Shown: piece by piece, positions 158 to 14,366 of the stretch | How the letters are laid out: the number at the start of each line of letters is the position of its first letter | Numbering within the stretch: position 1 is the first letter of the stretch | DNA from: Candidatus Bipolaricaulota bacterium | GTDB lineage: Bacteria; Bipolaricaulota; Bipolaricaulia; Bipolaricaulales; Bipolaricaulaceae | Direction of reading: 5' to 3' | NCBI GenBank assembly: GCA_014360945.1 | Contig: JACIWM010000002.1 | Coordinates: 1 to 37,655, forward strand | Length of the DNA: 37,655 nucleotides | Program-made: the position numbers and the translations under genes | The notes under the pieces: generated by a model | The model's database searches: none | Seen by the model: only the letters and a program-made list of their open reading frames with translations | What the model was told of the DNA's origin: nothing

Positions 158-1120
158 ATGAGGAAGCGTTTTGGGCGGCTGATCCTGATGGTCGCGGCTA
201 TTCCCGCGCTCATCGGGTTCATCCCCGGTGTACCTCATCCCGGTATCCAGCTTTTCATGTGGTGGGTGCCCCTGCCTCCCCGCGTGGACGTTCCTGAGCC
301 GAAAGAGGGGGTGGAGCGCGTCCTCGTCCTTGCTCCTCATCCGGACGACGAAGTTTTGGGTGCGGGCGGAGCCATTGTGGACTTCCTCAGCCAAGGCCAT
401 CAGGTACTTGTGGTTTTCCTCACCGCCGGGGATGCCAACACCGCGGCCAAGAGATTCCTCACCTGGAATCCTCTGAACAAGGCCGAGGACTTCCGAGCCT
501 TGGGTTACCGCCGTATGAAGGAGGCCGGACAGGCCATGCATATTCTCGGCGTTCCCTGGGATCACCTCCTGTTCTTGGGCTATCCCGACCGCGGTCTCTA
601 TGCCCTTTACACCACCTACCGAGAGAAGATTTTCACAAGCCCATTTACAAAAATGGATCACCCGTTTTACACGAACAGCTTCAACCCCGAGGCCCGCTAC
701 ACCGGTGCCGATCTTCTCCGGGATCTGTGCACCATCCTTGAGCGCTATCAGCCCACCATCGTTTACTGTCCGCACCCGGAGGACGCACACTCCGACCACC
801 GGGCCACCGCGTATTTTTTGGCGGAGGCATTGGCGCAGGTCTCTTTGGCCCCGGAGGTCCGTTATTACTTGGTGCACGGCCATCGCTGGCCTCATCCCCT
901 TCGGCTTGTTTTGGATGCGGAGCTTCCCAGCCCGGCGGATTTTTTGGCCGAATGGGATTGGTGTTCTCTTCCTTTGAGCGAGGAGGCGGTGGCGAAGAAG
1001 CTCGCGGCCATCCGGGCCTACAGCTCCCAGCGCCTCACCAACGGCCGATTCCTGGCAGCCTTTGTGCGCAAAAACGAGGTCTACACCTATCAAGCTATGG
1101 AACTCGTTCTAGACAAGTGA
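158..1120 (+). CDS. PIG-L/LmbE family deacetylase with N-terminal membrane/signal segment
   Basis: VLVLAPHPDDEVLGAGG motif and CPHPEDAHSDHRAT (PIG-L zinc-site pattern); N-terminal hydrophobic LILMVAAIPALIGFIPG. Confidence 0.9.
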   Translation: MRKRFGRLILMVAAIPALIGFIPGVPHPGIQLFMWWVPLPPRVDVPEPKEGVERVLVLAPHPDDEVLGAGGAIVDFLSQGHQVLVVFLTAGDANTAAKRFLTWNPLNKAEDFRALGYRRMKEAGQAMHILGVPWDHLLFLGYPDRGLYALYTTYREKIFTSPFTKMDHPFYTNSFNPEARYTGADLLRDLCTILERYQPTIVYCPHPEDAHSDHRATAYFLAEALAQVSLAPEVRYYLVHGHRWPHPLRLVLDAELPSPADFLAEWDWCSLPLSEEAVAKKLAAIRAYSSQRLTNGRFLAAFVRKNEVYTYQAMELVLDK

Positions 1121-2720
1121 TGGCATAAGGCCGGAAAGCATGGGGCTCCACATGCTCTGCCACCTTTTTAAATTGAGGGTGGGAAAGGAAGGGGCGATGG
1201 AAGAGGCGGGCGGCGGGCCAGGCGCTCACCAGCACCAGGTGCCCACCGGGCTCGATCTTTTCGGCCAGCATTTGAGCCAGCCTTTTCATGCGTTGATAGC
1301 CCAGGTAATAAATGACCTCTGAGCAGAAGACGAGGTCGAATTTTCCCGGGGGTAAGGACTGGCCGATATCAAGTTGGTGGTATTCCACGGGAAGGCCCCG
1401 GCTTTTTTCCCGGGCGCGGGCCAGGGCCCGGCTGGAAATATCCACGCCCACGGCCTCCTTGGCCACGCCTTCTTCTACTAATTTGCGGCTAAAAAGACCT
1501 TCCGCGCAGCCCAAGTCCAATGCCCGCCGATACGGTGGCTCCCCGCCCGCTTTTTTGCGCGGCAAAATGGCAAGTTTTAGGTCGTATTTGCGCACTTCAT
1601 ACGGGCTTTTCGCGTAGTCCCAGGGGTCCTCTCGGCGGAAGCGAAGGTCGAAAAAGCGCTGCAGGACCCTGGGTCGAAGGAGGATTCCGTATACTAGAAG
1701 ATTCCCGACCTCTGCCAGGCCCCGGACGAAACCCAGAGCGTGCTTCGCCTTTTTTCCCGCGCCATACCAAGTCAAAACGGCGAAGCCCAAGCCCACGAGG
1801 GTGAGCTCGATGAACCTATAGGTGAGGGAAAAAGCGAGGGAAGCGGCTGGGGGCACTCCCAAAAGCCCGAGGATTCCGACTCTTCCGCTCTCCGCCGTGC
1901 CCACTCCCGCGGGGGTCAGCCACAAAAAGAGGGAGAGGAAGGCGTTGAGATTGAAATAAACGCCCATCTCTCGCCAGGAAAACCACCTCCCTTGGGCGAG
2001 CCCGAAGTAGAAAAACGGCCGGAAATAGTGGCAAAGGAAGCTCAAAAACTGGAAGAAAAACGCGGCGAAGAGGGCATGAAAATTGCGGCGGAAAAGAGAG
2101 CTCATGGACTCTTCCATTCCCCGAATTTTTTGCGCTAGCCTTAGAAGGGGTGGGAAAGGCCGGCCTAAAAAGGTCACGATTCGGCTGAGCCAGCCCCAGC
2201 CCAGGGCGAAGCTTACGGCGCCGAGGAAGATGGCGAGGCCCAGGATCACTAGTCCCAAAAGGGCCCAGAGGCGGGCTCGGTCGGAAAGGTAAGGGAGGAC
2301 GAGGCCTGCGCCGGCCACGGCGAAGCCCAAAAGCACAATTCCCGCGATGACTCGGTCCCAAACCAAAGTCCCGGCCACAGTGGTTGGATCATGGCCGGTG
2401 CGGCGCACGACGATCCAGCCCCGCACGGGCTCTCCCCCAAGATAGGCCACGGGAGTGATGTAGGACACGGCATATCCGGCCAAAGCTGCGGCCCAGGTTG
2501 TGCGGGAAGAAACGGGGACCCCCGCGCCCCGTAGCAAAAACCACCAGCTTCCCGCCCAGAACGTGAGGCCAAGGATCTCCAGCCCAAACAGGAAAAACAG
2601 GGCCCAAAGGGGCAAACTTTGCGCAGCGGCCCAGATCTCTCGCGGCCCACTTACCGCCACAAGGAACGAAAAAGCGCCGAGCCCCAAAAGCAAAAGAACG
2701 AAGATGAAAAGCCGGCGCAT
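1095..2720 (-). CDS. Fusion: N-terminal flippase-like multi-TM domain (LPG synthase TM / UPF0104 type) plus C-terminal NodS-like SAM methyltransferase
   Basis: About 330 aa of TM helices with GVGTAESG-type motifs, then [19 protein letters not shown]...[12 protein letters not shown]...VGVDIS...[13 protein letters not shown]...[11 protein letters not shown], a class I methyltransferase resembling NodS. Confidence 0.8.
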
Positions 2721-6395: not shown

Positions 6396-6817
6396 ATTGC
6401 CCGTTTTGCCGCATTGCCCGCGGGGAACTCGCCGCACACCTTCTTTTCGCGGACGATGAGGTTTTGGCCTTTTTGGATGCGGCTCCCATGGCGCCCGGCC
6501 ACACCTTGGTCGTGCCCAAAACCCATGTGGAACGGTTCACCGAGCTTTCCGAAGAGCAGGCTAGCCGCCTTTTTGCTGTGGCCGTGCGAATCAGCCGGGC
6601 TCTCCAGGAGATCCTGGGCGCATCAGGGTTCACCGTAGGAATAAACGATGGCCGTGTGGCCGGCCAGGGTGTCCCTCATGTGCACATCCACATCGTCCCC
6701 CGCTTTCCCGGGGACGGCGGAAAATCCCTGCACGCCCTTTTGCCATACCGCCCGCTTCGTCCTGATCCAGACCTAGCTGCTCAGGTGCGGGCTCGCCTCA
6801 GTCTTCAAGAAAGCTGA
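6392..6817 (+). CDS. HIT family nucleotide hydrolase/transferase
   Basis: MNCPFCRIARGE...HVHIHIVPR (HxHxH). ATGA overlap with tyrS stop. Confidence 0.93.
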   Translation: MNCPFCRIARGELAAHLLFADDEVLAFLDAAPMAPGHTLVVPKTHVERFTELSEEQASRLFAVAVRISRALQEILGASGFTVGINDGRVAGQGVPHVHIHIVPRFPGDGGKSLHALLPYRPLRPDPDLAAQVRARLSLQES

Positions 6818-8699
6818 GGTCCGCCGGACAAACCGGGCCCTTGTAGTTTCCGGAAAACTTGTTGCCGTGCCCCATCACTTGCCCTCGGAATCCCCAGCCG
6901 GACCCGATACAGGTCCGTATCCCCAGCGCTACTCCGAAACCTTTGTTTGCGGAAAACTTATTCTCAAAAAGCTCGGCGCGGGCGAAATCCTGGAGCAAAA
7001 CCCCGCCGAGCCAGCCATTTTCCGCCACCTCGCTCCTTTGAAGGAAAAGGTAGCTTTGCCCGCCTGCGCCAATCCCGCACATTTCGTTTTGGGAGACCGT
7101 GACTTCCACTAATTCGGCCGTGCTTTCGTCCCAAAGCCAAATTCCTCCTTGAGGATGGCGTAGGATCTGAACGTTTTTGGCCGCAAGATGTGCATCCTGC
7201 CAAAGCTTTATCCCGGCTGTGTTCTCCTCGATGATGCAGCGGGTAAGCTCGGCCTCCGCGCCGGCCCCAAGGGTCAACCCCTCCGATCCACCGGTGATCC
7301 TCCCCCCAACAAGGCGAAGCTTCGCTCCAGCCACCAGCGAAAGAACGGGAGCGTTGGACGAAACACCTCTGAGCGTCACCTCGTCCTGAGCCCGGATTTC
7401 TAAGGGCTTATCCACGGTGAGCCCGGCCACATAGCTTCCCGCCAAAATTTCCAAGATCCCGCCCGGAAGGACGGCATCCACGGCCGTCTGAAGATCGGGA
7501 AAGTCCGGACTAGGAAAACGCAAAAAGTCCAGACCGGGAGTGGCTCGTTTCCTTCGCAACTCCGGTTGGACGTTTCCCAAAAGATCCACACCGTTTTCCC
7601 AAAACTCGTTGTCTCCTCCGAGCACGGGAAACCGGGAGAACCCGGAGACACCCGGTCCGAGGAAGCCTTGGATCGTGCATTCCCGAAGTTCGACCATGGC
7701 CGAATCGGAGGAGGAAAGGGCTGCACCCTGTCCCCGGAAGAAATGCGTTTTTTCCGCAACCACCGTGGAATCGCCGCGGGCACTGATTCCGTTCCAGCGG
7801 TTTTCGTTGAAATGGCAGCCCTGGAGCCGCACTGTTCCCCCACGAACAGAAAGGCCGTCCCAATTCCCTTGGAATACAGTGCCATAGGCTATGAACGTGG
7901 CGTTTCCCAAGACCTCCGCCCCGACATCCTGGTTTTTTATGAGGCTTGAGCCGAGGAGGAGGGCGGTGGCCTCGTCCTGGACGCGCATCCCTGGACCCTT
8001 GGTTTCTCGGATCTCCGTGGCCCAAAATTTCAAGCGTGCGCTGTCGCGGATCCAAAGGGTTGGTCCGGGATTTTCGGCAAAAACGGAGTTTTCCGCTTCA
8101 AGGACGCTTTTCTCCGCCACCCAGGCGCCGCCCATTCCGTTTTGCTGTATTGCGCTTTGTATCAACATCGCTTTCGCTTCGCCCAAAAGTTCCAGTCCAT
8201 AGCGCGCGTTTTCCGTAATCTCCGCGTTTTCCAAGATCAGAGTAGCTTGGTCTTTGGCGAACACCCCGGATGCCGCGTTTTGCACAATCCTTATGCTTCG
8301 CGCGGTCAGCGTGGCCTTTTCCGCGAGGAAGATCCCGGCGGAGGACAGATCTCGGTGCACATATCCTCCGCGACCGCCGCGGATGGTCAGGTTCTCCACG
8401 GTGATTTCTGCTTCCTTTCCGGCCCAAAGGACCGGCGGTCCGGCCACGCCGGCCTGAAGCACCGTGCGTTCCTTTCCCTCCCCCCGCAAGGTCACGGGCT
8501 TTTCCACCCGCACGTTCTCCGTCCAAATTCCCTTAGGGATGAGGATGATGCTATTGGGCAGGGCTGCATCCAGCACAGCCTGGATGGACTGGCCGGGTTT
8601 CACAGCGATGATGTTCTGGCCGGGTGGGGAGCGGGGGCTGCAGCCAAGAAGTCCCAGAACGGGAAGCAATATCCCCAAAAATGCCAATCTCTTTCGCAT
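6798..8699 (-). CDS. Lipoprotein with two right-handed parallel beta-helix (NosD/pectate-lyase-like) domains
   Basis: Signal MRKRLAFLGILLPVLGLLGC (lipobox). Two similar domain starts (IQAVLDAALPNSIILIPKGIW and LQTAVDAVLPGGILEILAGSY) with short N/G-rich coil repeats. Confidence 0.8.
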   Translation of the reverse strand: MRKRLAFLGILLPVLGLLGCSPRSPPGQNIIAVKPGQSIQAVLDAALPNSIILIPKGIWTENVRVEKPVTLRGEGKERTVLQAGVAGPPVLWAGKEAEITVENLTIRGGRGGYVHRDLSSAGIFLAEKATLTARSIRIVQNAASGVFAKDQATLILENAEITENARYGLELLGEAKAMLIQSAIQQNGMGGAWVAEKSVLEAENSVFAENPGPTLWIRDSARLKFWATEIRETKGPGMRVQDEATALLLGSSLIKNQDVGAEVLGNATFIAYGTVFQGNWDGLSVRGGTVRLQGCHFNENRWNGISARGDSTVVAEKTHFFRGQGAALSSSDSAMVELRECTIQGFLGPGVSGFSRFPVLGGDNEFWENGVDLLGNVQPELRRKRATPGLDFLRFPSPDFPDLQTAVDAVLPGGILEILAGSYVAGLTVDKPLEIRAQDEVTLRGVSSNAPVLSLVAGAKLRLVGGRITGGSEGLTLGAGAEAELTRCIIEENTAGIKLWQDAHLAAKNVQILRHPQGGIWLWDESTAELVEVTVSQNEMCGIGAGGQSYLFLQRSEVAENGWLGGVLLQDFARAELFENKFSANKGFGVALGIRTCIGSGWGFRGQVMGHGNKFSGNYKGPVCPADLSFLED

Positions 8700-8709
8700 G
8701 GCCTCGGCC

Positions 8710-8740
8710 ATTGTACAAAACAGAGGAAAAAGGTGGACAA
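8710..8740 (-). promoter_or_regulatory. Putative promoter TTGTCC-N19-TACAAT, 10 nt before ATG at 8699
   Basis: -10 at 8710-8715 (5/6), -35 at 8735-8740 on the minus strand. Confidence 0.4.
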
Positions 8741-8851
8741 GAACCGACCAATGCGTATAATTTTTGTGAGCCCTTCCGCCTGAGACCCACCCCATTCCAC
8801 CTCACGCCTCACCTCCCCCGGGCGGAAGGGCTCCCTAATTTTGCGCGATAG

Positions 8852-12828: not shown

Positions 12829-13485
12829 TCATCGTTTTTTGAGGATCACCAAATCCCCAAAACGCATGTCCACAACTGAATACCCGTCCAATAACCCTGC
12901 TCGCCAAAGCTCTTTGAGGATACCGAGTTTCTTGGGAACTTGGCAAATTGCACCGAAAAGTAAGGCCGGGGTGCCGGGAGCCACCGCCTCCCCTTGGGAT
13001 ACGTCCAGGACTGGGTATTTCTCGCGAATCCCCAAGGGAAGACGCATCCAGGCCAACGCGGCCTCCACCACTTCTTGACTCACCCGTCCCTCTTCAGCCG
13101 CCACGCCCCGCACCCAACCCTCCTCCGCTTCCTCCAAAATCACCCCTTCCTGGTCCACCCATACCTTTCGACCGTCTTGCAAAACCACAGCCACAAGCGG
13201 AGAGCGCTCGCGGACCTCTATTTCCACGCGCAAACAAAAAATGTTCACGCGTATGACAACCCCCAAAACCCGCGGGTCCGCAAGCAACCTCTGCCGCAGC
13301 GGTTCAAGGTCTAACCGAAGTATATTGGCCCCAAGGATTTCTCCTGTCAACTTTTCCACGGCCACATACCGGGTGGGATGGATCCGGACCTCTCGAACGC
13401 GAAGGGCTCCGCTCCAACGCAGGCCTACAAAACTACAAATCAGGGGGAGCAAAAAAAGGACGAGGATGCGGAGGGCGCGGATCAA
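12829..13485 (-). CDS. ftsQ: FtsQ/DivIB-like division protein
   Basis: Single N-terminal TM, POTRA-like VREVRIHPTRYVAVEKL, position between murB and ftsA; TTG start. Confidence 0.8.
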   Translation of the reverse strand: MIRALRILVLFLLPLICSFVGLRWSGALRVREVRIHPTRYVAVEKLTGEILGANILRLDLEPLRQRLLADPRVLGVVIRVNIFCLRVEIEVRERSPLVAVVLQDGRKVWVDQEGVILEEAEEGWVRGVAAEEGRVSQEVVEAALAWMRLPLGIREKYPVLDVSQGEAVAPGTPALLFGAICQVPKKLGILKELWRAGLLDGYSVVDMRFGDLVILKKR

Positions 13486-14366
13486 GTGCGGACGACCTCA
13501 AGCTCCAAGGTGAGCTGGACCCCGAAGACGCGCCGCACCGTGTTTTGCGCAAGCTCGATGAGGGAGAGGACGTGGGTGGCCATGGCTCCACCAAGGTTCA
13601 CGATGAAGTTCGCGTGTTTTTCCGAAATTTTTGCGGCACCAACTACCGTTCCTTTCAGCCCGGCCCGATCCAAAAGCCATCCCGCGGACACTCCCTCCGG
13701 GTTGCGGAAAATGCACCCCGCTGAGGGAAACTCCAAAGGTTGGGTTCGCCGCCGCTCGGCCAAAATTTCCGTGACTAGCCTTTTTTCCTCGGGGAGGCGC
13801 AAGCCCACCCTTAAAACGGGAAGTCTTTTCTCCCGAAAAACGGAATTGCGGTAGGAAAAGCGACACTCTTCCGGAGGGAATGTGGCCACGGAACCATCGG
13901 GAAGCAAGGTTTGCACGGCGGTGACAAAAGATGAAATGGAGCCGTAGCGAGTTCCGGCGTTCATGACCACTGCTCCGCCAGCGGAGCCGGGGACGCCGGC
14001 GAGGACCCATAAACCCCGGCTCACCAAAGTAGAAATGGGAACACCCGGCTCTACCCAAAGACCATCCTCCCTCTCCTCTTCGCGGCGAAGAAAGCGGGTG
14101 TGGATGACGAGGCCCGGAAATCCTTGGTCGGGGAAAAGCACTTTTGCTCCTCCCCCGATGATTCGGGACGGAATTTTCTCGGCCTGCGCGCGGCGCACCG
14201 CCTCAATCAAGGCCTCCACTGTGGCCGGGAAGAACAAAACCCAGGCCGGGCCGCCGATGCGGAAGGTGGTGTAAGGTGCAAGCGGCTCGTGTATTCGGCG
14301 CTCGCCCGGCAGATCCTCTAGGAGCCGGAGGAGAGCGAGCGCGCCATCTCGCGGGTCAAGCGCCAT
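13482..14366 (-). CDS. murB: UDP-N-acetylenolpyruvoylglucosamine reductase
   Basis: YTTFRIGGPA, GVPGSAGGAVVMNAG, SAGCIFRNPEG motifs. Confidence 0.93.
   Translation of the reverse strand: MALDPRDGALALLRLLEDLPGERRIHEPLAPYTTFRIGGPAWVLFFPATVEALIEAVRRAQAEKIPSRIIGGGAKVLFPDQGFPGLVIHTRFLRREEEREDGLWVEPGVPISTLVSRGLWVLAGVPGSAGGAVVMNAGTRYGSISSFVTAVQTLLPDGSVATFPPEECRFSYRNSVFREKRLPVLRVGLRLPEEKRLVTEILAERRRTQPLEFPSAGCIFRNPEGVSAGWLLDRAGLKGTVVGAAKISEKHANFIVNLGGAMATHVLSLIELAQNTVRRVFGVQLTLELEVVRT

Follow-up and report, generated by a model that had tools for sequence, protein, structure and literature searches.

The window analysed here, a stretch of 37,655 nucleotides, is an entire contig of a fragmented 1.28-Mb genome of a Candidatus Bipolaricaulota bacterium. 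Close to one of its ends lies a gene for a 541-residue protein, which, as the preliminary description had proposed, joins a multi-helix membrane (TM) domain to a NodS-like methyltransferase (MT) domain in one open reading frame at 1095–2720 of the minus strand; the protein is referred to below as the fusion. A PIG-L family de-N-acetylase gene had been placed immediately opposite, and this is exact in that the two genes converge tail to tail, sharing 26 nt, and form no operon. The neighbours of the fusion are tRNA-Ser (at the contig end, beyond PIG-L), PIG-L, gyrA, which starts at 2799 and is divergent from the fusion, and tyrS. The features of the locus are:

158–1120, plus strand: PIG-L family de-N-acetylase, 320 residues, carrying the motifs HPDDE and HPEDAHSDH; convergent with the fusion
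158–238, plus strand: N-terminal basic stretch and hydrophobic helix of PIG-L (residues 1–27), a predicted N-in anchor or signal from hydropathy and charge only
1095–1120, no strand: tail-to-tail overlap of PIG-L and fusion, 26 nt (23–104 nt in other fusion genomes)
1095–2720, minus strand: fusion gene, 541 residues, MprF-like membrane domain and NodS-like methyltransferase, stop codon at 1095–1097
1098–1634, minus strand: NodS-like class I SAM methyltransferase domain, residues 363–541, SAM motif LDLGCAEG at 401–408
1635–1793, minus strand: linker, residues 310–362, basic past the last membrane helix, predicted cytoplasmic
1794–2690, minus strand: LPG_synthase_TM domain (Pfam), residues 11–309, with the modelled helix pattern and fold of MprF flippase subdomain 1 and invariant E277 and R302
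2721–2798, no strand: gap of 78 nt between the divergent start codons of fusion and gyrA

All three domains that had been expected score above their Pfam cut-offs: LPG_synthase_TM (PF03706) on fusion residues 11–309 (98.3 bits, cut-off 33.4), NodS (PF05401) on residues 363–499 (43.2 bits, cut-off 24) and PIG-L on the product of 158–1120, which carries both zinc-binding metal-site motifs (104 bits, cut-off 28.2). The protein motifs quoted in the preliminary description are present and largely conserved among relatives. A beta-helix/NosD-repeat protein (6798–8795 of the window) adjoins tyrS and stays near the locus in most fusion genomes, and the same genome encodes a second, unfused LPG_synthase_TM protein (13312–14289 of another contig) with 37% identity to the fused domain.

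Conservation of the fusion

A census of 100 Bipolaricaulota genomes, searched for the MT domain with a threshold of E<=1e-60, found it in 25, of which 22 belong to the family of the window (f1). The fusion is genuine and conserved: it is read through intact in a single open frame in 18 genomes from genera g1, g5, g6 and g11 of one Bipolaricaulota family, which rules out an assembly artefact. In G004 the sole interruption is a run of N within the membrane part, and in G007 and G060 it is the contig end. The two parts are separate genes, with an 8-nt overlap and a plausible ribosome-binding site, in G018 alone rather than in all relatives, and this split is probably secondary because the G018 MT nests within the fused group of the MT tree, with modest support (94/78). 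Among named relatives the closest, a Candidatus Bipolaricaulota MAG, has a fusion 73% identical to that of the window. Beyond the family of the window the fusion was found in none of 389 genomes (289 from other phyla), a thin sample, and a wider contig scan gave a sole match, L033, possibly a duplicate of G005, whose contig is equally long at 65,013 bases. In two genomes of genus g5, G021 and G026 (L055 and L054), the fusion is absent between gyrA and PIG-L, which are left side by side.

The two domains and their structural relatives

The AlphaFold2 model of the fusion has a mean pLDDT of 83, and an AlphaFold model of the TM domain alone a pTM of 0.82. A profile sequence search of the TM domain against the PDB matched nothing, whereas a Foldseek search with its model did, the top five matches all being MprF (9j8s, E 2.4e-4 and TM 0.61 by query; 7duw), with TM scores of 0.56–0.61 by query and rmsd values of 5–8 Å. 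The modelled helices (2–24, 38–65, a broken pair 72–88/97–108, 112–144, 147–173, 214–243, a second broken pair 249–268/273–286, and 291–318) correspond in order to those of MprF subdomain 1, namely TM1, 2, 3a/3b, 4, 5, 6, 7a/7b and 8 (PMC8131360). E277 and R302 are invariant in 15 of 15 aligned rows, and are likely the counterparts of the MprF gate pair, Glu280/Arg304 (PMC8131360), to judge from a match of motif and spacing (25 compared with 24 residues) rather than a residue-level alignment. The lysyl-binding Asp234 of MprF has no obvious counterpart in the fusion and appears unconserved.

MprF is a lysyl/alanyl-phosphatidylglycerol synthase and flippase. Both proteins combine an N-terminal subdomain 1 fold and an apparently conserved Glu-Arg pair with a C-terminal cytosolic domain that modifies head groups, the cytosolic side being a prediction for the fusion. 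They differ in that the catalytic domain is a methyltransferase in the fusion and a GNAT-fold aminoacyl-transferase in MprF, and in that the fusion is without both this synthase domain and subdomain 2 (TM9–14), which forms part of the periplasmic cavity of MprF (PMC8131360). The fusion is also far from reaching the NCBIfam MprF cut-off (20.8 bits against 600). Its basic residues cluster past helix 5 and past helix 8, which places the MT in the cytoplasm by prediction, consistent with its use of SAM. An enzyme that uses SAM has to be cytoplasmic.

In the MT domain, Methyltransf_25 and general class I methyltransferase models of Pfam reach 57 bits. When the model of the fusion was compared with the PDB by Foldseek, the top five matches were all NodS (3ofk/3ofj), with E values of 3e-9 to 2e-8, TM scores of 0.75–0.80 by target and 22–23% identity. 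The resemblance to NodS that had been suggested therefore holds for the fold and the Pfam family, but does not extend to orthology, which is ruled out by the score against the NodS equivalog NF041650 of NCBIfam (58.5 bits, cut-off 300) and by the MT tree, where the fused MTs make up a clade separate from NodS and from plasmid PIG-L operons, although the deep branches are poorly resolved. NodS is the rhizobial enzyme that N-methylates deacetylated chitooligosaccharides. The fusion shares with it the fold, the DPW-Y-S-YE N-terminal motif and a partnership with an amino-sugar deacetylase. It differs in being joined to a membrane domain, in its separate branch of the MT tree and in having no nodC- or nodA-like genes adjoining; no nod gene context (nodABC, nodU) was found beside it. 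The fusion resembles a cross between MprF and NodS but belongs to neither, since its scores fall far short of both equivalog thresholds and the fused MTs branch as a separate clade.

Linkage of PIG-L and methyltransferase genes

The PIG-L protein of the window falls outside the BshB, MshB and Mca subfamilies, which were ruled out by their scores (63.5 against 182.5, 27.4 against 224.35 and 26.6 against 277.15 bits, respectively). Its nearest solved relatives by sequence are archaeal diacetylchitobiose deacetylases (PH0499, 8bgn; E 1.5e-10), although only about 55 residues align well and they lack the N-terminal hydrophobic helix found in the window protein.

Within the family of the window, a convergent PIG-L gene adjoins the fusion in each of the 21 genomes that have it, the two genes overlapping at their 3' ends by 23–104 nt, and the expected co-occurrence of the two genes is thereby borne out. 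Taken alone this adjacency is weak evidence, because gyrA is nearly as constant a neighbour (beside the fusion in 18 of the 20 genomes that allowed the test), and family synteny was accordingly set aside as proof of function. The genomes G021 and G026 keep PIG-L without the fusion, so that PIG-L works without it, and in G018 PIG-L is located elsewhere in the genome. G072 and G073 have the MT with no PIG-L adjoining. In family f6, a standalone MT lies directly behind a large, secreted-looking PKD-domain protein (L108 6153–8963, L109 6455–9488; the PKD call is by Pfam in L108), again with no PIG-L adjoining, and this protein is a possible other partner or substrate.

The evidence outside the family block is stronger, and the proposed tie between MT and PIG-L reaches far beyond the window. 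In G040, of Bipolaricaulota family f4, PIG-L is followed after a 7-nt gap by a standalone MT on the same strand, about 41% identical to the window MT. The closest standalone MTs have NodS as their top Pfam match, at 85 bits (the MT of G040) and 64 bits. A NosD-like/DsbA-like fusion gene lies downstream of the G040 pair. In a second phylum (50 genomes), a standalone MT relative is present in 16 genomes, full-length in 15, and is convergent with a long PIG-L in 8 of the 13 loci examined, from a 104-nt overlap to a 300-nt gap. This PIG-L likewise has an N-terminal hydrophobic helix, and the layout is tail to tail as in the window. PIG-L of this type occurs there in 16/16 genomes with the MT and in 2/34 without it (Fisher p 3e-11, shared ancestry uncorrected), and the long PIG-L of Bipolaricaulota in 25/25 and 25/75, respectively (Fisher p 1e-9, shared ancestry uncorrected). 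The presence of PIG-L also without the MT is as expected if the MT acts on the product of PIG-L.

The pairing of a deacetylase with a NodS-like MT recurs across unrelated lineages. Sulfitobacter, Comamonas, Acinetobacter, Novosphingobium and Deinococcus have plasmids that carry genes for an acyl-CoA dehydrogenase, PIG-L and a NodS-like MT in succession, with a glycosyltransferase adjoining; the Sulfitobacter and Comamonas loci were chosen since PIG-L was visible in them, and the other plasmid loci were chosen otherwise. These proteobacterial and Deinococcus operons resemble the window in having PIG-L and a NodS-like MT side by side, but differ in their short, soluble-type PIG-L, another MT clade (97/94 support), the same-strand order of PIG-L and MT, and the lack of a TM domain. 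The plasmid gene set (L074, L075, L076, L078, L080, L119) is widespread and uncharacterised, and often lies near catalase, trehalose synthesis and ligD stress genes. In Cupriavidus PIG-L is about 4 kb from a NodS-like MT, and in Rubrobacter a polysaccharide deacetylase stands in place of PIG-L. NodB-like domains occur in fusion proteins with a glycosyltransferase and a NodS-like MT, annotated in RefSeq as 'trifunctional', which likewise physically link the MT with an amino-sugar deacetylase and with enzymes related to membranes or glycans, but have a NodB-like (polysaccharide) deacetylase and GT2 where the window has PIG-L and the MprF-like domain. A NodB-like deacetylase is part of a glycosyltransferase-MT-deacetylase cluster in G162, and in G236 (L127 6574–7985) a YdjC gene (chitooligosaccharide deacetylase-like) and the region of the NodS-like MT gene overlap, both on one strand. 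In the PIG-L tree, the MT-linked long PIG-Ls fall in three separate places (f1, G040 and the second phylum), and because they do not group together the linkage probably arose more than once, which would speak for function over common descent.

These data bear on whether the MT acts on an amine at all. The domain could instead act on an O- or carboxyl group in some other lipid or glycan; its likeness to NodS would then be generic for class I enzymes, and PIG-L would be an envelope gene with loose ties to it. In favour of this, the sequence of a class I methyltransferase leaves the acceptor undefined, many unrelated methyltransferases match too, and 25 Bipolaricaulota genomes have the long PIG-L but no MT. 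This reading is distinctly unlikely, as NodS structures rank first in the whole PDB, the closest standalone MTs match NodS best within Pfam and PIG-L is always present in MT genomes. We tentatively favour N-methylation over O-methylation as the putative reaction.

They also bear on the role of the TM domain, which might do no more than anchor the protein or offer a surface for lipid binding, while the MT N-methylates a lipid-linked or soluble amino sugar without any flipping. The standalone, TM-less MTs found with PIG-L in G040 and the second phylum make the domain dispensable for the linkage, and the missing subdomain 2 points the same way. An invariant, gate-like charged pair and many invariant core residues nevertheless exceed the needs of an anchor, and G018 retains the TM protein as a separate adjoining gene, so that this simpler role seems rather improbable.

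A proposed head-group modification and the sides of the membrane

The best explanation, which we hold tentatively and at somewhat less than an even chance, is a membrane head-group enzyme built like MprF, with a NodS-like MT and a PIG-L partner, that deacetylates, methylates the freed amine and passes the lipid between leaflets. The fusion would be a membrane-bound head-group modifier in which a NodS-like, SAM-dependent MT replaces the aminoacyl-transferase of MprF, and its partner a membrane-anchored PIG-L de-N-acetylase. PIG-L would deacetylate an N-acetylhexosamine borne by a lipid or by a glycan linked to one, a type of substrate suggested by the membrane domain. The MT would then methylate the freed amine on the cytoplasmic side, and the MprF-like domain would hold the lipid and pass it between leaflets. 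Deacetylation followed by N-methylation of an amino sugar is the best-supported reading of the chemistry, and in Nod-factor synthesis N-methylation occurs strictly after de-N-acetylation (PMC5080398). That PIG-L and the fusion act as a pair, as had been suggested, is supported by their recurrent linkage and co-occurrence, but not by the arrangement of the genes, which are convergent and not co-transcribed, nor by an adjacency within the family that barely exceeds that of gyrA. Against the best explanation stand the distant similarity to NodS, the convergent genes, which are not obviously co-expressed, the apparent loss of Asp234, the genomes in which the MT has no adjoining PIG-L (G072, G073 and G018) or PIG-L no fusion (G021 and G026), and the predicted sides of the two enzymes.

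The relatives of the window PIG-L have 4–7 basic residues, then an 18-residue hydrophobic stretch, usually with few or no basic residues after it. According to the positive-inside rule, the basic-flanked side of a membrane helix faces the cytoplasm. The basic N-terminus preceding the hydrophobic helix thus predicts an extracytoplasmic catalytic domain for PIG-L. A conflict of sides remains, which the preliminary description had ignored, with PIG-L predicted outside the membrane and the MT inside. A two-way, MprF-like scramblase domain that returns the deacetylated lipid to the inside could reconcile the two; alternatively, the hydrophobic stretch of PIG-L may be no full membrane crossing. The MprF protein PaMprF scrambles lipids passively and in both directions (PMC11980842).

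The predicted sides would also fit the reverse order, in which the MT methylates an inner-leaflet lipid head, the TM domain exports it and an extracytoplasmic PIG-L deacetylates later or elsewhere on the same molecule, in agreement with the direction in which MprF works (PMC8131360). The MT would then not use the amine freed by PIG-L, however, and the simplest account of why it pairs with deacetylases of three unrelated families would fall away; Nod-factor synthesis, moreover, has methylation come after deacetylation (PMC5080398). The reverse order seems unlikely. The reading in which deacetylation comes first can be drawn further, into a two-faced unit outside symbiosis, with outer-leaflet deacetylation by PIG-L, return by an MprF-type scramblase and NodS-like N-methylation, yielding N-methyl-hexosamine lipids in Bipolaricaulota, and with a TM-less convergent pair in the second phylum; in this full form the proposal is doubtful.

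In the literature searched, no paper dealt with the TM/MT fusion or with PIG-L/NodS-type operons, and none was relevant to the envelope lipids of Bipolaricaulota, a little-known phylum. The PIG-L/MT linkage in unrelated bacteria suggests an unstudied route to methylated amino-sugar lipids or glycans. If deacetylation and N-methylation do proceed as proposed, the 'modify and flip' architecture of MprF would be extended to methylation, and the deacetylate-then-N-methylate chemistry of Nod factors would be a general, repeatedly assembled envelope theme far outside symbiosis. The small size of the membrane domain, the MT and PIG-L would allow biochemical testing.

The tail-to-tail arrangement of MT and PIG-L is seen in two phyla (L150, L152, L153, L154, L155, L158 and L159) and in a single genome elsewhere, G361 (L131), and the recurrent overlap could reflect antisense coupling of the convergent genes. 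In two Acinetobacter phage records, an MT overlaps an LmbE-like annotation.
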